This document shows, in pieces, positions 448-58,932 of a stretch of DNA of 64,000 nucleotides. This DNA is from Cryoendolithus antarcticus. Its lineage: Eukaryota > Ascomycota > Dothideomycetes > Cladosporiales > Cladosporiaceae. The stretch spans positions 62,001 to 126,000 of the forward strand of contig NAJO01000072.1 in NCBI GenBank assembly GCA_002077065.1, read 5' to 3'. The number at the start of each line of letters is the position of its first letter. Position 1 is the first letter of the stretch. Under the pieces are notes generated by a model. It worked only from the letters and a program-made list of their open reading frames with translations. It had not been told where the DNA came from and did not search any database. A program made the translations under genes and the position numbers.

Positions 448-1330
448 ATGGCTCCGAACCTTGCTGTGTCCTAGCATGCTATGATTCACGACATGCTTCT
501 TGATGGCTCCCTTAAGTATACCGAAATGGCGGCTGCTGATCGCTAGAGCGAACGCGCCATCTATCGCATTGCCTCCAACATGAAATGCTTCCGGGCCGCC
601 AAAGCCCCTCATAACGGCGTGGGAAGACCTCGACAAATGACTCAACTTATGCTAGGTGCTCATCGCGAACACTTGATCGAAAAACCGGAGCTGTATCTTG
701 AAGAAATGGTCATCTTCCTGTACGATGACTTTGGCATTCTCGTTGACCCTTCTACCGTCAGTAAAGCTCTGAAATCCATCGGCTGGTCAAAGAAGAAGAT
801 GCGTCAAATAGCTCGAGAACGCAACCCAGACCTTCGAGACTTCTATCTCCATGGAATTTCACACTCTCCATCGCGGCAGCTTGTTTATGTGGAGAGTCGG
901 GATGCGAGAAGCGAATTGGATGTCGGAAATCGGGATGGTCCCCTTGTGGTGTGGCACCTGTGCACATCGCCGAGTTCCACTGTGGCACTAGATGGCAGAT
1001 ACTACCAGCTTACACTCAAGCAGGTATCCTGCTTTCCCGAGTATATCAAGGCAGCACGAATCGCGAGCTGTATTAAGACTTCAACGAGCAGCTCCTTCAT
1101 CATTGCGGACGTTGGCCAGAGCCCAGATCTGTCGTCATAATGGACAACGCATCATTTCACAATAGCGAACGGATCGACGAGATATGCGCCGATGCCGGAG
1201 TGGAACTCGTCTACCTTCATATTCCCCAGGCCTGAATCCGATCGAAGAATTCTTTGCCGAACCGAAAGTACTCATCAAGAAGAATAATCCAGCACGACCG
1301 GCAAACTTGTCAGGAGATCTTCTCAATTGG
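448..1330 (+). pseudogene. Tc1/mariner (DDE_3) transposase remnant
   Basis: Cut-and-paste transposase, now broken. Reading from the ATG at 448 gives a Tc1-type N-terminus (MAPNLAVS, stop TAG at 472, a second TAG at 544), then a helix-turn-helix region with GVGRPRQMTQ, LYLEEMVIFLYDDF, STVSKALKSIGWSKKKM and RNPDLRDFY. The catalytic half needs further frame changes: the second aspartate motif MDNASFHNSERI is read at 1140-1175 in another frame, and the SPGLNPIEEFFAE motif with the last acidic residue sits near 1220-1262 in a third frame. The first DDE aspartate region (about 890-1000) is too degraded to place. The order of motifs is that of fungal IS630/Tc1 transposases of about 340 residues. The first stop is explained by a CAR codon changed to TAG, as RIP would do. 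No flanking TIR or TA duplication was found. Confidence 0.8.
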
Positions 1331-1981
1331 CGACGAGACCAAGCATGTCATCCGAATATGTTGGTCGGGCGCTGTTACGCGACTGCGGCCGTGTTCGCAA
1401 CTGGCATGTTGACACGCTACTGCTCGTTTAGTCCGGGATGAAGTAGACGGCCACGATGCGACGACATCAGACATGCTCTGAGCAATTTCCACCGACCACC
1501 CAAAAGCGGCACTTTCCGAGGCTACATATGCTGCACTCGCAGGCGTGCTGTTCATGGGCTTGTGGCCTGGCCTTACCACACTCACCGCCCCTCGGAATGA
1601 TGCATGCTCATGCGATGGTTGCATCTTACGGGCAACCTTCGATGCCTGGGGCTGACGAGACCTAGTGATCGACTCGGCATATCGGTAGTCACGCCACCTT
1701 ATACATCCAGAGGTACACGCCTCAGGCGCCTGCGTGGACAGACGAACACGTAGCAATACGACCGCTAGCCATCAGAAGCATGACCTCGCCACTGCTATTT
1801 TGGCATCCTGGTCATGCCTATATATCTGGAGAAGTCGTAATGAATGCCTCTACAGCAAGTCTGTTTCGCCTTGAGTCACGACCTGGAACCAACGCCATAA
1901 TTTCATCAAGCCGTCGAGAATAAGTGACGACTTCTGTCCACTTTTGCATCTTCATCAGCACAACAGATTCAATCTGACGCC
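1331..1981. other. Unassigned stretch with degraded coding look
   Basis: Around 1430-1660 the plus strand reads a protein-like segment (LAGVLFMGLWPGLTTL) broken by a TGA. I cannot assign it to a family. No terminal repeats or RNA genes were seen. Confidence 0.3.
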
Positions 1982-4900
1982 ATGCCGATATTGGGACTGC
2001 TGAAATGTGTGCCTGCCCGGCCCACAATCGGCGAAACCGCCCTTATCGAGGTTCACCCGCCTGTGGGCATCACGGCATTTGATGCGGCAACGTCGCATTC
2101 CATACGTATCAATGGCGTCCCTTGCTTTCGCCGATACGTACAGTTCATCCGGCCAGGTCTAAATACAGTCTGGGCACAAGCGTACGGACCGGGTGGGCCT
2201 GAGTCGCAAAGCCTCGCTATACAAATCCTGCAGCCGACGAACCCACCGGCGGCTATTACCTCGGGCTTACCTGCACTCTTGTCATCTTCTGCGGTCGTAG
2301 CGCCTCATGTCTGGCCAGAGATCGGAGTGCCTCTACTCCAGACCGCCCACTTGCCACAGCAACCAAACGTGGTGGCATTCGGCATTGGCTCAAGCTCGGG
2401 TCTAGCGCTGCGGACGGAGTCCATTTTCAATCGCTCTCTAAGAGTACTGCCTGAAATGCTCCTGCCGAACCTTGGCCAGGTATCGCTGGGATTTTGGGAA
2501 TGGAAAGGTGACCGAGACTGTATCATCAGTTGCTCATCACGACTTCAGTGACTCGCTTGATCGAACCATTAAGCACCAGAGTTTCGATATCTCCGTGCAG
2601 AGTGCAGGCCAGACCGTCACTCGGACATTGACGTTCACTAATTTGTATGCGATGCTCAAGAGGATACGCGGGGAAGCCCATCCCACGCTCACTCCGGTTG
2701 GATTTGCGAGACGCGTAGGGTCTGGGTTCAAAGGCCACTTCACTATCTACAACTCGGAAGCCCGGCCGCTAGTGATCGTTCGCTGTCGGTTCGATGCACT
2801 GTCTGTTGACGGTCAGACACTGAGCGGCACATCGGGTGGCATAATAATCAGCCAACTCATCGTCGTGCCACCTAGGCATATTCACTTCGCTGTGGTATTC
2901 GCCAGCTTCGACAATGTTGCTAAAGACAGCAACGGGTTTGGGGCGCACTTCACTGGCAGAGTAGCAGGCTCAGATGACATGACAAATCCAATCACAGTCC
3001 GAGCAAATGTTCAATTTGATCTTGAACCTGGCCAAAGATCGCATTTGAGCAGTCTCGCCCACTCTCTGGATGCTGAGGCACACCTAAACACAATAGCTTC
3101 GGCTTTGGCAACGCTGAACAGGTCAGGCGCATCACTCTCTGAGTTGCGCTCTGCCCGGCTTGTGTCTTTGCCGATACTGGAGGACACTCGCTCGGTTGTC
3201 AGTATGGGTACTCGTGCGGCATTAAGTAACGGAAACCTCGGTGACGTGCACTTCGATAGCGCTGTCATGCCGCCTACGCTTACAGTGGGGGCTGAGTGTG
3301 ATCCCGACAATCTGCCAGGCAACACTCCCGAAGGACTTGTCTGTCAAGCCAACTCCGAGACTCGCATCATTACATCCCCAGGACGATTCATGAACGCTCG
3401 CAAAAGAGATGTAATCCTGTCACCCGGCGGTAACGGCCTTATTGGCGGTCTCTTGACTCACGTGAACCACCCGCAGTATTACTCTCACAGTGGGATCATG
3501 ACCAGGAATTATGACCAGATCACCCACCGTACGGCAAGCCAGGAACGCTTAGAGGCGTATCCTGTTGGCTCAATACCTTTCGATGGGCCCGAGCCGACAG
3601 ATGATTTCCGACCTGGCGTTGTCAAGTACGATTGGCCAGGTGTGATCACGCAGAACGTGGAAGATGCGGTCGATGGGCAGGTGTTCACAGACCCGGACGA
3701 TCCAAACCATCGTCCATACACGATACAGGCCTTTGATGCCGTGGCTGCTGGAGCTACAGTACAAGGTAACTGGCACATCATCCCACCCATCGTAATCAAA
3801 CCAGACCCGATGCAAGAAACGATGAAACTCAGGGAGAAGCTTCATGAGGTGGCTGGCAATGCTGCGGACAGCGTTGGCACACTCCACTACCGATTCTATG
3901 GCTACTCTGACCCGAAGATCGTAAAGACCGCCGCTCCTGCTGACAGTAGATGGGCTGCCAACACAAACCCGGCAATCTGTTCCAGTTTCATATGGGCGAT
4001 GATGAAGGAGACTGGCATGCTTCTACAAACTGCTGGGAATGTGGTAACCAATGCTGATCTACGCGGCTCTGCGGTTTCCGCTGGAGACAAAGTTGGACCT
4101 TCAACACCGGACGGATTGTTCTTGTATAGCGCAGCTGAGCGAAAGCGATGTGCAGAGTGGCTTCACGAGCAAATTGCCAATCGAGCGATGGATAAGATCA
4201 ATCAGAAAGCTGGGATTCTCGGCGGTGTAGTCGATCTTTTCACCAAGCTGACGACACATGTCAGTAATGAGTTCCTCAACCCCTTTGCACGGGATGTTGT
4301 TGGTACCGATGACGATGACACTGCATGCGAAAACACAGTAGACGCTAACGCAGTGAGTCCTGACAATATCATGTGCTGGAAAGGACATGGTGGTACTTCT
4401 GCTGGGCCGTGTAAGTGTGCCATTGTATCGTTGGTCACATTAATTGCTGACATTGCGCAGACGGCTGCTGGGAGCCATTGATATACCGCGAGCCTAGCTA
4501 CGACGTTGTGAGGATCAACAGGTGGCGCCAGGTCCAGCTTACGGTACATCTGTTCGGTGTAATCACCTTCCAAGCCCAGCCACTATCTGGAGTGACAGTA
4601 ACGCTGTACGAGGGCAAGGTTGGCAATACAGATGCCGCCGGTCACTACACAATCCACCAAGTTCCACATGGCATGTACACGGCCAAAGCACACAAGGTGC
4701 AGGATGGCAATGTCTTGAGCGTTGCCACGCCTGTTACCCTTATGCCGCCACCGCCGCGCAAGATATTAATCTGGCGCGACCATCGGATATGTTCAGGACT
4801 GTCGTAATTGATGGCAACATCTACACCCACTACACAAAGCACATCATCTTCACTGTCGCCGATCACAGCGGCGATCTGCCATTTCATCGCGAGCTGCGGG

Positions 4901-5139
4901 TGGGACCGTACAGCACGCATGCCGAAGTGGTCATTGAACACCATGTGGACGATGCGCGTAGTGTGTTAACGTTCAAGACTGATCGGCAACTAGATAAGTC
5001 TGTTATCGTGTGGTTCAGCTTCGGCCTACACGACCGGACTACGAGAAACAGCTCGAGAGTGCCGATAGAGGGGAGCGTAGGATGGACAGCGAACGCAATC
5101 CTGACAATGATGACGCGAAGACTTCGTTCACGATTGTGA
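1982..5139 (+). pseudogene. PKD-like / permuted papain-like / carboxypeptidase-regulatory-like protein gene, bacterial architecture
   Basis: Long secreted- or surface-type protein whose domain order resembles bacterial multidomain proteins. In order: a beta-rich N-terminal part (1982-2460, starting at ATG 1982); a PKD-like segment with RYRWDFGNG at about 2478; a long middle region; a permuted NlpC/P60-like cysteine peptidase region with YYSHSGIMTRN (possible catalytic His) near 3480-3510 and NPAICSSFIW (possible catalytic Cys) near 3970-4000; then a carboxypeptidase-regulatory-like fold (LSGVTVTLYEGKVGNTDAAG) near 4585. A 50-bp intron at 4411-4460 (GTAAGT...GCAG) joins GTSAGPY to GCWEPL in frame; unspliced, the frame stops at 4481. 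Two frame changes, near 2470 and near 4745, suggest single-base lesions; the C-terminus is read in the last frame to a TGA at 5137. Peptidase activity is inferred from motif order only. It could instead be an intact gene with unrecognised introns. Confidence 0.6.
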
Positions 5140-5398
5140 ATCGGCAGACAGAGGGGTAGGCTTTGCTGTGTTTATACTGTTGGAAATGCTGTAGGTTTTC
5201 ATGCTCACTACTATAGCGCAATCGGATTGACTCCGCCATCGGATTGAACCCTCCTGCCACCCCACCCCTAGGGGTCCCCCTGGGTCCCCCTGGACGCCTC
5301 AACGCGACTGCGTGTGAAGACGCGACGCGACCGCGCCACCCAGGAACGCGATCGTACTTACCGCACCACCTACGCCTACTAGGTTTCCTCCGAGGGAC

Positions 5399-7325: not shown

Positions 7326-9181
7326 TCAAGGCTTCCCGTTCCGGCCCTCGCGGACTCCAGACAGTTCACTCGGCACAGGGTGGCTCCTATCGGGCAGCTC
7401 ATATACCTGCGTCGTATCTGCCTCGTGAGGTCGGTGATCCCCATGCAGTTCACGCAGATGTGTGTCTTCTGCTTCGAAAGGTGTCTTGGAGTTGTCGGAA
7501 TGCCAGTCGGTCATGGCTGTGGATTTTGCCTTAGTACTCCGTCTCCGGCTGCGGCGTATAAACCAAACCGCAACCGCCAAGAGCGCGAGAGCTACAACGC
7601 CAACCACTACGCCAATTATGACACTAGTATGCGGCTTGCGGGCGTGTCCATTACCCGGAGGGACCGAGCTTGCCGAAGCAGTAGCCCTCGATCCGGGCGT
7701 GCTCGTGCTAGTAGGTAAAGATGATGTGGTGGCCGTTGGAGGACGTTGCTTCATGACAGCCGCCAGCTCCGTATCTGCCCATCCGTAGTCCGGTTCGCTC
7801 TTGGCGCCGCCGCCAGTACTAGCATAAGGTCAGTCGACACCGCATCGCTGTTGTGATTGGAACTTGGACAAACTCACCCGCCGCCAACCACACTATATAT
7901 AGTTTGCGGCACCTTATATGCAATACTCGGATCGAAGACGGACTGCCATGTGTAAGTCGAGAGATCCAGGGCGCGCAACGGGGCGAAAACTTGATTGCAT
8001 GCTCCATCCGTGAGTGACTGGTGTCCAGCTCTGATGTTCCCGCCCAAGACCAAAAGCTGGGTGTTGTTGTACACCTGACAGCTCTGCTGATCACGTCCGA
8101 TGGTGCTGTTGACTTGTTGTTCTGCGTTAGTCTGTACCGAGAAGCTGGTCGCATTGATCCACGTGAACGAAGGTAGGCTGAGTACAAAGACTGTCTCGTA
8201 GGACTGCAATTGGAGGAGACTCCAACCGCCATAGATCGTGATGTAGAAGTTCGTGTTGTCCAGTGAGGTCGTGACGCCGGCGCAGAACTGGCAAAGGTAG
8301 TTTGGAGGTGCATCGCCAGAAGCCTTGTGGGCCCACCAGGTATGGGAGGCTATGTCGTAAACATTGATCACGTTGAAGCTCGATGGCAATGGGAATCCAG
8401 AATTACTGTCCATACCGGCTGAGACCTATGACTACGTGTTAGTCCGTAAGTCAACATGCAGGCAAACCGTGTCGCTCACATTGTAGCCCCCAAAAGTGAC
8501 GAGAAGACCCGCTTCTCCGGCTGGTACATATACAAGAGTGCCGTCGACCAAATTCGGAACCTCAACGCCGAAAGACCCATGCCCCAGAGACTCGTTCGTC
8601 CATGATAGCTTGGCAGGATCGGATGCGTTGAAACGGATCATGCTTGGACCAGTGTACGGCGCAAGACCTCCAGTAGCAAACGAGAGGCCCGAGTCTGGCG
8701 CGCTGACCGCCTGCGAGAACGATCGGTTCCCAAAGTTGAAGGCACCACCATCTACTTGGACATCTTTCCATGCCTGAGAGGTGACGTTGTAGGAAGGCAA
8801 TACGTCGGTAGGTGACACTGTGCTTCCAAAAAAGTAGAGCGTGTCTCCCGCAGACCAGATCGGAACTGACGCGTTGTAAGGATCAGTGTTAGCCACTTGG
8901 GCAATTGAGTCTATCCCGTTGCTCGTTACCAGGCTCGATGGAATGCCTCGCTCAATCGGAAATGTATCGTCGACGGTGAGCGAGTACAGAGACGACGTGG
9001 GCTCGATTGATTGGCCGCTGAGTGTGACGAAGGAATAATAGCCATGAAGGAAGTAGAGGCGATTTTGAACGAGTGTAGAGACTGCGCCCAAAATGTAGCA
9101 GATGTCGCCGGCGGCGCAACGCCCTTGACTGAATAAACTAAACAACACCACGGCGACGGCTAGGCATTGTGCAATGGCCAT
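7326..9181 (-). CDS. Kelch-type beta-propeller single-pass membrane protein
   Basis: The clearest intact gene in the window. Three exons on the minus strand (9181-8480, 8425-7878, 7818-7326) give 1743 nt, exactly 581 codons with the stop. Intron 1 (8479-8426, 54 bp) has GTGAGC...CATAG and a GACTAAC branch site; intron 2 (7877-7819, 59 bp) has GTGAGT...GCTAG. Both junctions restore the frame. I chose ATG 9181 because it begins a signal peptide (MAIAQCLAVAVVLFSLFSQG). The ectodomain has kelch/galactose-oxidase-like blades (LYFLHGYYSF, LLVTFGGYNVSAG, ITIYGGWSLLQ, LLVLGGNIRAG) and many N-glycosylation sites. A Ser/Thr/Pro stalk leads to one transmembrane segment near residues 482-503 (SVIIGVVVGVVALALLAVAV), a basic stop-transfer run (RRSRRR) and a cytoplasmic tail of about 75 residues. 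This architecture is common in filamentous ascomycetes; the ligand is unknown. It is probably a cell-surface protein. Confidence 0.9.
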
Positions 9182-15350: not shown

Positions 15351-17191
15351 CTAAAGCTTCGCCTTCGTCCTAAGCTTCGCCAACGTATATTCATCCCAGT
15401 CTACCACCTTCTTCACCTGGAATTGCGTCAATCCATACACAGATTCAGATCCCGCGCCCATCATCTCGTCAAAGACAATTTTGATGCCTTCGCTCTGTTT
15501 GTGACCTCCACCACCATCCTGCCAGCTCAATCGCACGAGATCTCTGCTCAAGGCCGAAGCTCTGGGAGCTACAAGCCTCAACCGAGTGAGATACTAGTCC
15601 AGAGCACCAGGTAGTAAAGTGGCGGAATCGACATCTTGATGCACAATGCCGTGACTCTTCAGCTCGGCAACGGAGACTGGGCGAGCTGATATCATAGCTT
15701 CTCGTGAGAGGGACAGACCCCATTCGCGAATTACATACCGCGAGATAGTCGCTGGTGCGAGCCCGAGTTTTCCCTCGCTCAGCGTCATGCTCGAACCCTT
15801 CGCCACTATCCGCACGTCACAAGCAAACGCCAGTCCGACTCCGCCGCGAAAGCTGGACCCTGTATACAAGCTATCGTGACTTGCGGTGCGTTGTCGATGA
15901 CGTTAGATAGCTTCGTAACGCGTGCGTACTGCGCATCTGTGGCCGACTCGCTTTTCGCTACGGGGGGAGAGTCTCTCGAAAGATCCATGCTCGTGCAGAA
16001 GTACTTTCCGCGGGCGGAGAGCACTATACGGGTGATGTTGGGATCTTGAGCGGCATCTACGAACATCGAGGTGATGGCCGCGATCAATACGGCTATCAGT
16101 GCATTGCCGTTCTTTGGTAGATCGAGGGTAATTTGGAGATTTGTGCCGGAGCGCAAGATCTCGAGCCCGGGCATTGAAGGCTGGAATGACCACTTTAGCT
16201 TTGCAACTGATGGTATAGATTCGGGGGAGACCTTCGCTGCGGACTTCAGTGCGATCGCGGAGCCTGCTCGGCTGGAATTCGGCGCTGACAGGACTTGAGA
16301 TATCCATTCACCTACACGCACGAGCCTGGTCAGATCGATACCGGTGGATCTCCCGGATTGATGTAGGGAGTAGACCAAATCTTCGGTGGCTAGATTACCC
16401 CTCGCTCCGGGAGTGTAGGGACAACCACCCATGCCACCTGCGCTGCTGTCGAACACCCTGATACCACATTGGTAGGCTGCCCAAACGTTCGAAATCGCTT
16501 GACCGTAGGTATCATGAAAATGTCCGGCCGGGAATTCTACTGGTACACCCGCATTCGTCAGATAATTAGCGAGTTCAGATACGTCCGCTGGAACACCAAC
16601 ACCAACGGTGTCTCCAAGACTGATTTCGTAACACCCTATAGCGAGGAGCTGTTGCACACAGTTGAGGACAGCCGCGTGAGGTATAGGCCCGTCAAATGGG
16701 CACGCAAATATGCATGAGATATATCTGGTTTGATGTTAGCATGTGCGCATATGCAGAGAAGGACCGGTATTATACCCTCTGATAGCGATGCCGTGTTGCT
16801 TCGCACTCTTAGCGACATGTCGAGCTCGATCAAGACCTTGCTGAGTGCTGCAGTTGATGTTCGCCCTACTAAAAGCCTCGCTCGCGCTCACAAATACCGC
16901 CACCTCCTTGATACCATAACCCCTCGCAACTTCCAGGCCCTTCACATTTGAAACCAATACCGGAGCTCGCACGTTGCGGCTCTGAACAATTGACTTGACG
17001 TACTCATCGCTCATGACATCGCGACAGTCAGCCAGCTGGGGAATGGCTTTGGGCGAGACAGCTGACGTGATCTCAATCGTTCGTGAACCGGCATGGTGAA
17101 GACGGCGTATCAGCTCGACTTTAATGGCCGTAGGAATCACCTGCTTGACATTCTGCAGCCCATCGCGAGGGCTGACTTCTACAATTCGCAC
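15351..17191 (-). pseudogene. HMG-CoA lyase / enoyl-CoA hydratase fusion gene, broken
   Basis: N-terminal HMG-CoA lyase (HMGL-like TIM barrel) joined to a C-terminal enoyl-CoA hydratase/isomerase. The lyase starts with VRIVEVSPRDGLQN (Arg-Asp catalytic pair) at 17191, crosses a 51-bp intron (16775-16725, GTATAA...CCAG with GCTAAC branch) that joins RG to YISCIFACPFDGP, and goes on with CYEISLGDTVGVG, GHFHDTYGQAI (metal-binding HxH) and GGMGGCPYTPGA (catalytic Cys loop). The hydratase part has NALIAVL and a GGGVGLAFACDVRI-like oxyanion segment. One base is missing near 15844 (GPAF then RGGVGLAF), and TAG at 15596-15594 interrupts the last part, after which GIKIVFDEMMGAGSESVYGL is still readable to 15351. 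The true start is uncertain: MSRACLVRCTNTHAR in another frame just upstream could be the old N-terminus. A normal role would be breakdown of leucine or a related branched acyl-CoA. Confidence 0.85.
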
Positions 17192-17565: not shown

Positions 17566-19053
17566 GAAGGTTTCCCCCCATCTTGCACGTCCCCACACAA
17601 CGCACGCTTTTGACGCGTATCAACGAACACAACAACCACGCGATAACTCAACACCATGGCTCCTATTGATGATGCTGTCGCGTTTCTACGTTCCTCTGAT
17701 GGACCACAAATAGCTGCCGCAGCTAAATCCTTTGGTGTTAACCGTAGCACTCTCAGTAAGCGATATCATGGCCAAAGTGTCTCCAGAGCTAGCAATGCGA
17801 CACGACGACAATCATTCACTCCTAAGGAGGAACAACTGCTAATCAAGGAGATCTGAAGGCTCTGCGAATGGTGCTTACCGCCTACACCGGCTATGGTGCG
17901 TATGTGGGCCTCAACGATCAGTGGTAAAGAGGCAGGGAAAAACTGGTCTGCGAAGTTCAGACGAAGGCACCATGCTACCCTTGACACACGCTATCTCAAT
18001 ACCCTAGACCTTGAGAGGCACAAGGCCGAGTCAAAGGCATCCTTTCAGCAGTACTTCGATATCCTACAGCAGAAGATGCAAGCATACGATATACAGCCTT
18101 ACAACACCTACAACATGGACGAAAAGGGCTTCCTCATTGGCCACCTTTAAGAGGTGCAGAGGATCTTCCCTAAGGCCATGATGAAGCAACAGAAGCTACT
18201 AGGCACTGGCCAAGATGGTAACCGAGAGTGGATAACAGTTCTAGCTACTGTTTGTGCAGATGGAACCTCATTGCCGCCAGCGCTTGTTTACAAGGCTATA
18301 AGTGGTGATCTTCAGGACATCTGGCTTCAAGATTACGATCCAATCGAACACCAGTGCTGGTTTGCAAGCTCTCCAAATGGCTGGACTAGCAACGAACTTG
18401 GTTTGAGTTGGCTACAGAGCCTGTTCCATACTCAAACAGTCACCAAAGCCGGGAGGAACTGGAGGCTGCTAATCCTTGATGGCTTTGGCTCCCACTGCAC
18501 CATTGAGTTCCTTGATTGGTGCAGAAGCAATAGGATCCTTGTTGCTATCTTTCCTCCGCATGCTACGCATCGATTACAGCCCTTAGATGTCAGCATGTTT
18601 CGACCTTTAGCTACCTTCTACAGCCAGGAGCTAGATCATCATACTCGGATATCACAAGGCCTCACAAGGCTCACGAAGCGTGACTTCTTCTCCAACTTCT
18701 TTAGAGCCTACCAAAGAGCGTTTACAGAGCCTAACATCAAGTCAGCATGGCTGAAAACTGGTTTGGAGCCGTTCAACCCAGATGAAGTGCTTCAGATCTT
18801 CAAGAACGATACCGAGGCCTTACCTGTTACAACACCTTCTGGATCTCGCTCAAGTAGCTGTTTAGACTCGCCAACAGCTATCGGTAAGATCAGGAGGATT
18901 GTGAATGAACAGCTTGCTAGCAATGACGTTCAAACACAGAAGGTTGTGAACAGACTAAGCAATGCATGCCTTGCCTTTGCAACAGAGCTTACACTTGCGC
19001 GAGAGCGTGAACAAGGCTACCTTGAAGACCTCACATTTGCCAGTGCCTTTTGA
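17566..19053 (+). mobile_element. Fot1-like transposon, first copy (right end lost)
   Basis: The left end begins GAAGGTTTCCCCCC at 17566, preceded by TA (17564-17565), and the leader shares TGCACGTCCC and GCACGCTTTTGA with the copies ending at 10380 and 32067. The transposase gene begins at 17656. No matching right TIR was found; sequence similarity to the 30-kb copy stops near 19047, so the element is 3'-truncated. Confidence 0.75.
17656..19053 (+). pseudogene. Fot1-like transposase (HTH plus DDE_1) with two stops
   Basis: One frame from ATG 17656 to 19053 apart from two stops. TGA at 17854-17856 replaces the Trp codon found in the 31.7-kb copy (KEIWRLC), and TAA at 18148-18150 replaces a CAG there (GHLQKV). 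Motifs in order: HTH AAAAKSFGVNRSTLSKRYHG; NMDEKGFLIG (first Asp); WITVLATVCADGTSLPPALV; LLILDGFGSHCTIEFLDWC (second Asp); FPPHATHRLQPLDVSMFRPL (third Asp). The catalytic triad is intact. The C-terminal basic and Gln-rich part seen in the other copy is missing after ELTLAREREQGYLEDL. Predicted nuclear protein acting on its own TIRs; inactive as it stands. Confidence 0.9.
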
Positions 19054-36177: not shown

Positions 36178-37977
36178 TCATGCTGCACTTTGTATACATC
36201 GTCGCCTAGTGTGACCTTGCACTCCACAGGTACTGCAAGTTGGTGCTTTGCGAGCAAGCCTGGCCATGACAGCCCCCCCTGCCCCCTCTGTGATAGCAAC
36301 CCCTCCCTGCCCTTCATCTCCAGCCCCTCCCTGTCCCTCCACCCCTGACTCCCTTGCCTCCCCTGTTATAGCTTGTATACGCTCTCTTGTACGCTCCGCT
36401 GCAGCAGTAGTGCGCTTCTCCTTTGCCTCAGCCTTCTTTGTAGCACGCTCTACTACAGCACGCTCTTTTTGTTTTCTCTCCACTTCCCCATGTTCAGCCA
36501 CTGAAATCGCCTCTCCCTTGTATTCCAATGTTCTCCTCTTTTTAGACCTCCGCATGTGCACGTTTCATTAGCTTGCTGGAGCATGCTCAATTCCGATGCC
36601 ATCATGGCTATCTCAGCTGCCACAGCCTGAGCACCCTTTGTGAATTGTGTAAGGGATTCTAGGAGTGGTGTAGGTGAGCTGCTTTGGTGTCTTTGGAGTC
36701 GCTGTTTGAGGGAGTCTGACTGTCTGTCAAAGTGGTACACAGTGCGTGGAGTTCTGCACTCCCAGGACGGTTGTGAGGTAAGTGCAGGGAGCTGAGGAGT
36801 AAGCTGAGGAGTATGATCCTCATTATAGGGAGTGCCATCCTCGTCAGGATAGCCAGGTCCAAGGTCATCCAAAACTGTGTTGGGATTCATGGGTACAAGC
36901 CAGCTCCACGGAATCCTGCTTGCACATTGCCTACTGTAAGTGAGAGAGGCAAGCTCTGAGAGATACCTGTAATGAAATCCTGCTTAGTAACATGGTGAAA
37001 ATGATTGCGTATCAGATGCTCGTTGAACTTAGAGAACATTCGCTTCAAAGGATAAAAGCATCCAAAGTCCATAGGCTGCAGCATATGCGATGAATGTGGA
37101 GGCATCCAGGCTAAGTAGATTTTGTGCTCTTCACAGAAATCTCTGAATCGAGGTGTCAAATGACTTCCGTGATTATCGAGGACAAGGAGGCGTGGTTCCT
37201 CAGTTTTTGTGTGCATCTCAAAGTGTCGAATCCATTGCATGCCAATTTCATCCGTAGTCCAGCCATGATCACTGATTGCAAAGCGCCATTCAGAGGGCAA
37301 GGTATCAAACCATCTTGAGTCGTATGTCTTGCCTTTCATAACCAAAAATGGCGGGATTATGGAGCCGTCTGCACATGCACCCTGAACAAGTGTAACCCAC
37401 TCTGTATTAGTTGGCTTTGTCTGTTTTGGCCGGCCTATGCGATCTGAGCAGGTTACTACAGTTGAAGCGCTGATCTGGCCCATTTGGAAGCCAGTTTCGT
37501 CGAAATTGTAGAGCCTCTTTACAGTATTGATATTGTAGCATTTGACCATATTATCAACGAGGGTAAACCACTTCTTGACTTGCTTTGGATCCTCGCATTG
37601 ATGCCCTGATATTCGTAAACCATGCCACGCCGCGCCGAGAGTTGTGCGGTTCGCTTTATAAACGCATAAGGCCAATTTATTCCAACCTGTTGCGCTCTGC
37701 GTGCTGCAAGTATCGCGTTTGCGATCTCCCGAACAATAGCATAGCTCGGCGGTAGTCCACACTTGTCAAGGGCAAGTACCTTTTCAATGAGAACAAGTTC
37801 TTCGGCTTTACATAGACGTGTGGTCTTTTTGGCGGTTGCGCGATCTGCAATGCCTTTTAGGCGGCGGCGGAGTGTTGTTCTTGGCACGTTGAATACGTTG
37901 GCGGCCACTGCGACGCTTTGGAATTGGTTCAAGTGTATGGCGTTCACCGCTAGGGCAACGCGGCCTTCTGAAGTCAT
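36178..37977 (-). pseudogene. Pogo-type transposase with three frame breaks
   Basis: ATG 37977 reads MTSEGRVALAVNAIHLNQFQ and the psq-type HTH AVAANVFNVPRTTLRRRLKG, then GINWPYAFIKRTAQLSARRG. A one-base change near 37600 leads to CEDPKQVKKWFTLVDNMVKC, LYNFDETGFQMG (first Asp), WVTLVQGACADGSIIPPFLV, LLVLDNHGSHLTPRFRDFC (second Asp), MPPHSSHMLQPMDFGCFYPL (third Asp, DFG). Another shift near 36890 (GAGLYP to MNPNTVLDDLGPGYP) and a third near 36555 (within an A run) reach a C-terminal basic tail with a zinc knuckle (CSTCGVQGHTRRRC) ending at 36178. All three catalytic aspartates are intact and no C-to-T stop is seen, so only small indels separate it from a full-length protein of about 600 residues. 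Confidence 0.85.
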
Positions 37978-55049: not shown

Positions 55050-58000
55050 CATTGCTAGTGTTGGGATACAATTGGAGGTCGCACTTCGTGATTTCCAAGG
55101 CAAATTGACGCCACCCGAAAGAGCTCGCCTCCAGTCACTGAGAACAGTACCTGAAGCTACAGATGTGATGGTCATCACCGCGGAGTTAGACGCCGAAAAT
55201 GCGAAGCGTAAGACTCGAAGTGTTGCCAGCCGGCTGATCAAGCTCCTTGAGTCTATACAGCAATTCACAGGGGTCGTGAATACTTTCGTGTCGTCAAATC
55301 CAACTCTTGCAGCACTGTTGTGGGGAAGTGTAAAGCTGATGCTTCTAGTATGTTTACTTGACAAACACCAAGCGCTTTATGAGGACTGACAAGCTCAGCT
55401 CGCTAACAACAGTTGTGCTTATTTCGACAAGTTATCTTCTTTTCTAAACAAGATCGGACGTTGCTGCCCACGCTATGCAGATTATTCATCGCTTTTTATG
55501 GACGACAAAAGATTACAGGATAAATTGTGTGACTTCTACGCAGAGATTGTCAAGTGTTGCACACACGTGTGCGACATTCTCCACAGACCAGGTAGTTTCT
55601 AGGCTTGTCAAATGACTTGAACGTTCAAGAACTGATAAGTAGTAGGATGGATGAGTCTTGTCCGTAACGCTTGGGCAACTTTTGAATCGGAGTTTGGAGA
55701 GTTTCAAGATCGGCTGGAGAATATGCAAGATGAGATGGAAGGTGAACTTCGCCTTGCCTCTGATCGTGCCAGCTCAAAGGAGCGAGAGACGCAAGGTTCT
55801 CACCGTCGCGACATGATTTTATCCACAAGGCGAAATGATAGCGCTATAGCAAAAGTCCAGAAACAAGAACTTCGGCGACTAGCACAAGAGAAACGCAAGT
55901 GTAAAAGAGGTTTGACTAAAAGGGCTGAGTGGCTGACAAATCTCAGAAACTGAACGCGATCGTCTATTAAATAGGCTATCAGAGTATGACCAAAGCATCG
56001 CCTACAGGCAGGCGGCCTCGAAATGTTGTGCTGGTACAGGGCAATGGATTTCCACGGATCCAATCCTGCAAAGCTGGCAGGCAGCAGCAAGATCTTGTAC
56101 ACTTTGGCTCAGCGGCAGATGTGAGTACTCGGCCACGTGAACAGGAATCTACTCACTGACAATTTCAGTGGGCTGTGGAAAGTCGGTCCTTATGTATGTT
56201 ACAGAATTCCTGCAAAAACATATATTCTAACTAGCAACAAGGTCACAGGTTGTGAATTACCTCTATGGAACTTGCTCCTCACGGGATGTGCGGACGGTAT
56301 ACTTTTTCTGCCGCTTCAACAATAAGGCGTCCATTCTCGCAGACACTATTTTACGTTCGCTGCTACGTCAATGCTTAGATCCGAAATCACTGCCTACGGA
56401 CATCGAGAGCAATCTTTAAAAACTTCTTCGACAGACTTGGGTTGAACCAAGCGCGCTTTGCGGCATTTTGAAGTCAGCAACATCTCGGTATCGTACGGTC
56501 TACATGATCATCGATGGTATCGATGAGTGTGATACAGCCCAGCGCTCAATCATCTTGGAGAACCTCAGCAAGCTTGTCAGCTCTTCTGGAGGAGTCGTGA
56601 AGCTTGTTGTCGCCAGTCGCAACACGGTCGCGAGACCTTTATCAGCATCCTCAACACATATTCTGGATATCAATCTACGCCAGAGCAACTTCCAAGAAGA
56701 CGTTGGTACATTCATCGACGAGACCCTCGCACTTAGGATAGATGTTGTTGTCCTTCATGTTGGAGATCCATACGTAATTATCGAAGCTAGGGAAGCATTG
56801 TTGTCTGGAGCAAAGGGCATGTGAGTACACCCGAATCTTTCCACAGGTATCATCAAGCTCACCAGTACAGGTTTCTATGGGTTGCTTTGCAATTGGATAG
56901 TATCTGCCGTCAAACAAGTGACGAGAACATACGACTTACCATACGACATTTGCCGAAAGATCTCAAAGAAACGTATGTTCGGATGCTGTCCCGCATACAG
57001 CTCGACGAGAAAACGTCACTAGCATTTCGAGCCTTCAAATGGGTCGCTGTATCGCAAAGGCCTCTGACTCTTCCAGAACTGACAGAAGCCCTCGCAATTG
57101 AACGCTTCGCCAAGTTCTCCAGACCCGAGCGTATGGTAAACGACCCTTCGAGAATCATACCCTGGTGCGAGGGGCTGTTGATACTGCAGGAGGATGGCGA
57201 AGTCCAATTTGCACATCCTACTGTCAAGAAAGTATTGACAGATGTAGGAGAAACGAATCGAGTCCGAGTCTTTGGTTTTACTTTGTTCGCGGCCAATAAG
57301 GAAGTTGGCGAACTCTGCATGACTTATCTTGACTTCAACGAGTTCAAAACTCAACTGGTTAAGGCATCGAAACCCCGTCACTTGCCAGCACGCGTAGTCA
57401 TCGAGTCTTCCATGCCAACAAACATCAACACAAAGCTTGCGAAGGCATTACTTAAGCTCTCTCAGATTCGATCACGATCCATTAAGGATAGCCCTGACAT
57501 CTTGCGTTCCCTAGCTCAGGCTCACTTTGATGGAAACGGCAAGTCACCTATCACGACAGCGGTGCAACATCCCTTTCTGGCCTATGAATCCAGGCATTGG
57601 CTAGCGCACTCCTGCAATTTCCAAACCAACGATCGCATCTGGACACTCTGGCATAGCATAGCTACAGGGAATGAGAGTCTCGCATTGAAACCTTGGACTT
57701 CATATGACTGGACTCACAATAAGTGCATTGTCAGTTCCTGTATTCTTCATTTGAATCATGTTGCATTGTTCCATGTGCTCTTTCGTATAGACGATACCGC
57801 TGATTATAAGGAGGTAGCATGGTTACTGGAAAATGCAGCATACTTCGCACACATCGTGCTGGTAAGGGCTATACTTGAGCTTGGCTTCACCAAAAAAACG
57901 GATATCAATCGAGCACTGCAGCTAGCAGCCAGAGGAGGGCACCTCGACGTATCAGAGGAACTGCTTGCTGCAACGGCCGATGTTAATGCCGCTGCAGCAG

Positions 58001-58932
58001 AGGAGTACGGTCGCACGGCTCTACAGGCAGCGGCTGAAGGAGGCCACCTTGACGTTGTAGAGAGACTGCTCGCTGCAAAGGCTGATGTAAATGCCACCGC
58101 AGTGGGGTCTGATGGCCGCACGGCTCTACAGGCAGCGGCTGAAGGAGGCCACCTCGACGTGGTAGAGAGACTGCTCGCTGCAAAGGCTGATGTCAATGCT
58201 GCCGCAGCAGAGGAGTCCGGTCGGACGGCTCTACAGGCAGCGGCTGAAGGAGGCCACCTTGACGTGGTAGAGAGACTGCTCGCCGCAAAGGCTGATGTCA
58301 ATGCCGCCGCAGCAGAGTACTATGGTCTCACGGCTCTGTAGGCAGCGGCTGGAGGAGGCTACCTCGACGTGGTAGAGAGACTGCTCGCCGCAAAGGCTGA
58401 TGTCAATGCCGCCGCAGCAGAGTACTATGGTCTCACGGCTCTGTAGGCAGCGGCTGGAGGAGGCTACCTCGACGTGGTCGAGAGACTGCTCGCCGTAAAG
58501 GCTGATGTCAATGCCGCCGCAGTAAAGCGCTCTGGTCTCACGGCTCTGCAGGCAGCGGCTGGAGGAGGCCACCTCGACGTTGTAGAGAGACTGCTCGCCG
58601 CAAAGGCTGATGTCAATGCCGCCGCAGCAGAGTACTCTGGTCGCACGGCTCTGCAGGCAACAGCTGGAGGAGGCCACCTCGACGTGGTAGAGAGACTGCT
58701 TGCCGCAAAGGCTGATGTCAATGCCGCCGCAGCATTCGACTCTGGTCGCATGGCTCTGCAGGCAGCAGCTGGAGGAGGCCACCTCGACGTGGTAGAGAGA
58801 CTGCTCGCCGCAAAGGCTGATGTCAATGCCGCCGCAGCAAAGTACGCTGGTGGTCGCACGGCTCTGCAGGCAGCTGTCAAAGGAGGCCACCTTTGGGTTG
58901 CAGAAATGCTCAAGACATTTGGTGCAAAATAA
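55050..58932 (+). pseudogene. NACHT-ankyrin (NLR/STAND-like) protein gene, broken
   Basis: N-terminal helical domain (VGIQLEVALRDFQGKLTPPE; LAALLWGSVKLMLL), likely interrupted by an intron from 55348; then ATFESEFGEFQDRLENMQDE. A one-base shift near 55945 leads to TERDRLLNRLSEYDQSIAYR and TGQWISTDPILQSWQAAARS. A 49-bp intron (56120-56168, GTGAGT...TCAG) splits the P-loop GRLGCGKSVLMY. TAA at 56228 and 56417 follow (both CAA to TAA by context). Walker B-like MIIDGIDECD lies at 56504-56533. The winged-helix/linker part reads LPKDLKETYVRMLSRIQLDE, then a long helical part, then ten ankyrin units (57906-58932), two with TAG stops. The last repeats and C-terminus (WVAEMLKTFGAK) are otherwise in frame. 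Family role: cytosolic non-self or stress sensor in fungal heterokaryon incompatibility-type reactions; this copy looks dead. Confidence 0.85.
57907..58930 (+). repeat. Ankyrin repeat array, 105-bp units
   Basis: Ten units of 35 codons; the middle eight are nearly identical (TALQAAAEGGHLDVVERLLA, AKADVNAAAAE). Units five and six both carry TAG (58339-58341 and 58444-58446) and a Tyr for His change (GGYLDV), exactly 105 bp apart. Confidence 0.95.

Follow-up and report, generated by a model that had tools for sequence, protein, structure and literature searches.

A large gene of bacterial type lies on the plus strand at positions 1982-5159 of the window, as we call the whole 64,000-nucleotide stretch of DNA that was analysed, and codes from end to end for a relative of a bacterial-type protein of about 1050 aa. 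According to the protein search it is B0A48_18349 (protein P0001) of Cryoendolithus antarcticus, an Antarctic rock fungus earlier named Rachicladosporium antarcticum CCFEE 5527 (PMC10739867). The host contig has a length of 134,845 bp, and the genome of 47 Mb is assembled in 149 contigs.

Organization of the gene and its surroundings

The extent of the gene was delimited by tblastn with P0004, an intronless relative of 1052 aa, which covers the window from 1988 to 5153 in five pieces with 36-59% identity, nearly from its first to its last residue. The homology runs in frame +2 from 1988 to approximately 2480, in +3 from 2475 to 4409, in +2 from 4463 to 4741, in +1 from 4744 to 5097 and in +3 from 5103 to 5153. 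At 4410, frame +3 gives way to frame +2 because of an intron at 4411-4460; the three other switches are frame changes, and inspection of the sequence revealed no intron of comparable quality at these three sites. Thus, the description of the locus in the first-pass annotation as a bacterial-style multidomain gene with a fungal intron is borne out. Its statement that the frame is open for most of 3.1 kb conceals three changes of the reading frame, near 2475-2491, 4742-4743 and 5098-5102; the longest open piece is 2442-4481 (679 codons).

As judged from tblastn and from the structural model of P0004, the order of the modules is Ig-like domain, PKD, beta-sandwich, papain-like Cys/His core, CarboxypepD_reg and C-terminal beta-sandwich. 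The N-terminal piece (1982-2480, frame +2, ATG at 1982) comprises the Ig-like beta-sandwich and a linker. It is followed by the central open frame (2442-4410, frame +3, homology from 2475, first in-frame ATG at 2652) with the PKD strand YRWDFGNG, a beta-sandwich and the papain-like core. The second exon (4461-4741, frame +2) encodes the transthyretin-like CarboxypepD_reg domain and is 53% identical to P0004. Past the next break, the C-terminal beta-sandwich piece (4744-5097, frame +1) shows 58% identity to residues 915-1032 of P0004, and the last piece (5098-5159, frame +3, stop codon at 5157-5159), which begins with the third frame change at 5098-5102, corresponds to P0004 residues 1035-1051 in tblastn.

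Other features of the window were also recorded. DDE_1 transposase frames are present at 18151-19053 (plus strand) and 36887-37765 (minus strand), and the region seems to be rich in transposon remains. Ankyrin repeats and a GPIID winged-helix segment are encoded at 56791-58341 (plus strand), an arrangement which we take to be that of fungal NLR-like proteins. One open frame at 15806-16735 (minus strand) joins an HMGL-like segment to a downstream enoyl-CoA hydratase segment, possibly as a fusion of two genes or as a bifunctional enzyme. Region 7379-8398 is represented by two further, diverged copies on contigs C128 and C35 of the genome (71% identity); as judged by eye, its minus strand may encode a kelch-type protein.

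Since the protein is of bacterial type and the related loci are bacterial, contamination of the fungal assembly with bacterial DNA had to be weighed. The first-pass annotation had argued against it on account of the intron, and our observations point in the same direction. In addition to the intron, the 134.8-kb contig harbours ankyrin frames, one of them with GPIID_WHD, and DDE_1 transposase frames, and such genes are typical of fungi. The GC content of the gene (52-55%) is inside the range of the first 20 kb (48-57%). Further, a second species, Rachicladosporium sp. CCFEE 5018, has the same gene (B0A51_00905, protein P0002) in the same neighbourhood. Upstream of the gene, at 547-1345 (plus strand), there is a sequence with an HTH_33 match (E value of 1.1e-5 in 547-1137), which we read as a transposase remnant, and residues 6-54 of P0002 match the window at 1199-1345, just upstream of the gene, with 96% identity (tblastn). 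The end of this remnant is joined to the gene in the CCFEE 5018 gene model, and thus gene and remnant sit together in two species. Contamination is therefore ruled out for practical purposes, its residual probability being minute, and the gene is located in the host chromosome.

Domains and candidate active site

The three domains named in the first-pass annotation were recovered with different clarity. Of the 17 proteins in alignment A2, 13 gave a PKD match in Pfam (E value threshold 0.1), with P0004 scoring above the cut-off, and YRWDFGNG is present in the window; however, no piece of the window matched at an E value of 1, and despite YRWDFGNG a profile search of the genome with PKD_4 gave no match. 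The CarboxypepD_reg segment was detected in the window with an E value of 2e-5, but its 25.3 bits are below the cut-off of 32.3 bits; P0004 (PF13620, E value 1.7e-6, 28.7 bits) also remains below this value, and 16 of the 17 A2 members match at an E value of 0.1. The transthyretin-like beta-sandwich fold expected for a carboxypeptidase regulatory-like domain was found. The papain-like segment is indicated by its conserved residues, by the order in which these occur and by secondary structure prediction, but it was matched neither by a Pfam model (17 A2 members) nor by an NCBIfam model (five proteins scanned). In particular, PF05708 gave no row for the window pieces (E value of 1) or for the 17 A2 members (E value of 0.1).

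The conserved set in the core consists of GD.[VI]L, SH.GIM, TH.T, HYR..[.]Y and CS..[IVL]W. One His, one Cys and two Tyr are present in all rows of alignment A4, which includes 42 of the 51 proteins kept in our first search (alignment A3 includes 44), and all of them are retained in the fungal copy. The candidate catalytic His (YSHSGIM) is encoded at 3486-3488 and the candidate catalytic Cys (ICSSFIW) at 3978-3980 (42/42 rows each). Another His, at 3525-3527 (41/42 rows), may be the third, polar residue of the triad. One of the two invariant Tyr in HYRFYGY (3885-3905; 42/42 rows each) is a candidate catalytic Tyr by analogy with PMC3142127. In both fungal proteins, the Gly of the NARKGD motif is replaced by Arg (3405-3407); Gly is found in 41 of the 42 A4 rows, and Arg in P0001 only. 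The codon positions of this exchange and of the candidate His and Cys were counted by hand from the sequence.

This arrangement, with a His preceding the Cys, a Tyr and a polar third residue, corresponds to the pattern of the permuted papain-like NlpC/P60 proteins (YaeF/YiiX, C92), to which the roles of the residues are assigned by analogy. The likeness to these proteins, as far as they are described in PMC3142127, is that GD.[VI]L, H.G, Y and CS..[VI]W occur in this order in the relatives and that Cys, His, the polar residue and Tyr are conserved; the difference is that there is no Pfam match here and that profile comparison aligns 20 columns only. Indeed, hhalign against 10 C92 proteins yielded a probability of 3% and an E value of 0.014 over just 20 columns, at the Cys motif; all four controls (the reversed core and three other regions) scored lower. 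In the P0004 model (mean pLDDT 82.0; 78.9 for P0001), strands and helices follow each other in an order which, by eye, fits the common core of a five-stranded sheet and two helices. Fold searches with the two whole models gave no papain-like row among the matches listed (50 each), which were mostly beta-sandwich; this says little, because one domain can fill such a list. A sequence search of solved structures gave good matches only for the CarboxypepD_reg-like and PKD-like stretches, and neither there nor in Pfam or NCBIfam was a full-length member of the family found that has been characterised. Since the profile evidence is poor and the core was hardly probed by the fold searches, we prefer to say that the core works like C92 and not that it is a member. 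By analogy, it would be a hydrolase of an amide or thioester bond, with the Cys as nucleophile activated by the conserved His. The beta-sandwich modules around it might serve to attach the core to a surface or to a partner. No signal peptide was evident by eye.

The intron and the relatives of the gene

The intron (4411-4460, plus strand, 50 bp) is of the spliceosomal type, in phase 1, and splits a Tyr codon. It starts with GTAAGT, contains CTGAC near its end as branch signal and closes with GCAG. Its removal restores the frame (GTSAGPY/GCWEPL), exactly as had been proposed. At this site the alignments of P0003, P0004, P0006 and P0007 continue gapless with GPYGYCEPL, GPYGYTEPL or GPFGYAEPL, and according to sequence and alignments a spliceosomal-type intron is not present in the bacterial relatives. 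The gene models of P0001 and P0002, both of them predictions, are spliced at the intron site. A loose intron pattern, which was composed after the site had been seen, matched once in the gene, at 4411-4460, while 0.031 matches are expected per shuffled gene of the same size. By itself the signature is not decisive, because 3.1% of shuffled genes of like size would show it. With up to 3 mismatches allowed, no second copy was detected in the genome, and an origin of the intron from a repeat or introner was rejected within this limit of divergence.

The intron is best supported by comparison with P0005, which has 677 aa, is of metagenomic origin and shares 49% identity with P0001 along 608 aligned residues. 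P0005 can be aligned with the family as far as SPGP, after which it terminates in CKRSFLTPEIHGFLI; it leaves the homology at exactly the codon at which the window, when read unspliced, continues as SAGPCKC. Cys-Lys must be encoded by TGT or TGC and AAR, and thus P0005 is compatible with a T|GTAAR donor, as deduced from its protein sequence. A search with the C-terminal part (3 proteins kept of 3487 candidates) revealed P0090, which carries the family onward to its end. Both are assigned to a contig of 16,506 bases, and we infer that it is one and the same contig. The annotated start of P0090 leaves approximately 25 residues past the splice site uncovered, so that the match in P0005 concerns the donor side alone. 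Altogether, region 4411-4460 is well supported as a spliceosomal intron, its position seems to recur in P0005 across approximately 50% divergence, and P0005 would be a eukaryotic protein whose gene bears this intron.

In our first protein search the best 7997 candidates were scored and 51 proteins were kept. Seven of them carry an organism name, five being bacterial and two fungal; the second fungal protein, P0002, is 97% identical over 57% of the query. No further fungal name appeared in the second search (best 8000 scored, 73 kept, one row being a compost metagenome). The nearest named bacterial proteins are 38-39% identical over most of the length. Bacterial proteins such as P0017 (Desulfomonile MAG), P0057 (Gammaproteobacteria MAG), P0026 (Acidothermus MAG) and P0075 (Paenibacillus) have PKD, papain-like and CarboxypepD_reg domains in the order found here over most of their length; P0017 spans 96% of the query of the first search and P0057 78% of that of the second. 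The His, Cys and Tyr are invariant in the rows compared, with P0057 and P0075 outside the 42 rows. By eye, P0045, P0047 and P0051 leave the family in the alignment before their ends, which may reflect either decay or sequencing error. The bacterial relatives are single intronless frames, in contrast to the fungal copy with its intron and three frame changes. A scan of the GTDB species genomes revealed 28 related loci (L002-L029) in nine bacterial phyla, several of which are represented by one metagenome-derived genome each. In the ORF lists around 10 of these 28 loci, no common neighbouring gene was seen by eye. A paralogue in the own genome was not found, the plasmid collection gave no match, and the viral contigs yielded 19 pattern matches with no relative among them.

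In a quick tree of 79 rows, which takes in all 51 kept proteins and the 28 loci, the fungal pair is placed deep inside, among intronless, mostly metagenomic proteins. A smaller, careful tree (26 of 88 proteins) unites the fungal pair, P0045, P0005, P0003 and P0004 in a clade with a support of 100/100. Within it, the fungal pair, P0045 and P0005 form a weakly supported clade in the best tree (76/41). A test of the fungal pair plus P0005 without P0045 gave p = 0.002 against this grouping, as expected if P0045 belongs between them. Thus, among the best-scored candidates the closest relatives are outside the fungi, with the fungal copy nested among them, the nearest sisters being without organism name. 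Ordinary fungal proteins as best hits, with no bacterial clade nearby, were seen neither in the protein searches nor in the tree. Together with the apparent recurrence of the intron position in P0005, the nesting in intronless proteins supports the proposal of the first-pass annotation that the gene was transferred into a eukaryote and then gained an intron. We infer the direction of the transfer from this pattern; a bacterial source of the sister clade (P0003, P0004, P0006 and P0007) would be argued from its long frames without introns and from the wider tree.

Constraint, probable decay and alternative explanations

The three frame changes differ in how widely they are seen. The one at the edge of the PKD segment (approximately 2475-2491) is read through in one frame by the CCFEE 5018 protein. 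The annotated C. antarcticus protein jumps here from LGQ to SFDIS and so loses the YRWDFGNG strand, which we take to be the gene caller's detour round the break. The change at 4742-4743, after which the old frame stops at 4805-4807, is common to CCFEE 5018, the last 23 residues of P0001 and P0002 being identical. The third, at 5098-5102, is seen in C. antarcticus. The CCFEE 5018 model lacks three internal stretches of C. antarcticus and has its N-terminus replaced, which suggests more damage to the gene there. Errors of sequencing in an otherwise whole gene would be in line with the fact that the homology goes on past each break, and the breaks other than that at 4742 have no second witness, the first one being absent from CCFEE 5018. 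However, the break at 4742 is implied identically by the protein of another isolate, and we consider this explanation quite improbable.

Highly conserved positions are kept to 85% in P0001 (102/120), 83% in P0002 (99/119) and 88% in P0005 (96/109), and to 89-94% in P0003 (115/127), P0004 (119/127), P0006 (113/127) and P0007 (118/127). Long-term constraint on the fungal gene is plain from these sequence comparisons, and the lower values of P0001 and P0002 fit relaxed constraint in the fungi. The two fungal proteins differ at 24 of 644 columns. Out of 687 columns, 43 had been excluded as edges of gene models, which removed 34 of the 58 differences; columns with fewer than 20 other rows had been dropped earlier. 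Differences were counted at 2 of 110 columns of high conservation (1.8%), at 8 of 225 of intermediate conservation (3.6%) and at 14 of 309 variable ones (4.5%); with 24 differences this test is weak, and the avoidance of conserved columns does not reach significance (p = 0.26). In the Antarctic lineage the gene is now probably in decay, and its full-length function would have been lost. Weighing against decay, the central frame is still open over 656 codons, and the rise of the difference rates from conserved to variable columns fits remaining constraint.

A shortened product with an intact core, translated from the ATG at 2652 to the stop at 4807 of the spliced transcript, is possible. The transferred gene could then still be functional, with core and CarboxypepD_reg domain made from the central frame and the second exon and with dispensable broken ends. 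The absence of stops in the central frame 2442-4481, the intact core residues, the position of the shared break after most of the CarboxypepD_reg domain and the lower number of P0001/P0002 differences at conserved columns would agree with this. However, the Gly of NARKGD is now Arg, several differences between the two species are radical, the three further stretches omitted in the CCFEE 5018 model suggest additional damage, and the trend with conservation lacks significance; we regard a functional short protein as rather doubtful. Alternatively, the six-member clade with P0003 and P0004, or a larger one with P0006 and P0007, could already be eukaryotic, the transfer being older and the intron lost or never acquired in these members. 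None of the four carries an organism name and P0005 groups inside the same clade, but they are single intronless frames of 1052-1075 aa with a bacterial pattern, and this makes such an older transfer unlikely.

We favour, with a probability of roughly 70%, the explanation that a bacterial-type gene was transferred to a eukaryote, gained an intron, was long constrained and has entered decay in two Antarctic rock fungi. A large gene for a protein with a papain-like cysteine hydrolase core between adhesion-like beta-sandwich modules would have reached a eukaryote by horizontal transfer, with the core working like the permuted NlpC/P60 enzymes. The spliceosomal intron would have been gained before the Cryoendolithus lineage separated from that of P0005, and the gene would then have been long under constraint before its present decay in the two fungi. 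On a bolder and tentative view, which we hold as a minority possibility, the bacterial family of multidomain cysteine hydrolases, itself uncharacterised, would have a eukaryotic branch. In at least one lineage, the source of P0005/P0090, core and C-terminus would be intact and the position of the intron would have been kept over approximately 50% protein divergence. The protein would have a real role there, for example in the cleavage of bacterial or lipid-linked amides within microbial communities, and the Antarctic copies would document how it is lost.

Transferred genes that have acquired introns are frequent in fungi: one survey lists 20,093 prokaryote-derived fungal genes, 44% of them with introns (PMC11708051). 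The gene described here resembles such genes (PMC11708051, PMC3584928) in its bacterial-type origin and post-transfer intron gain, but as far as described in PMC11708051 the surveyed genes are under purifying selection, whereas this copy looks broken. The main text of that survey names neither Rachicladosporium nor Cryoendolithus, and no publication on this gene was found by title among the matches listed. Thus, the gene is one more transferred, intron-bearing gene of bacterial type in a fungus and overturns nothing. Its added interest is in the intron position apparently common to a diverged copy and in the signs of decay in an Antarctic lineage, which make it a checkable case of a long bacterial-type gene followed through intron gain, constraint and decay in a eukaryote. 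Last, it draws attention to a protein family without a name, whose loci occur in nine bacterial phyla and which has an invariant Cys/His pair.
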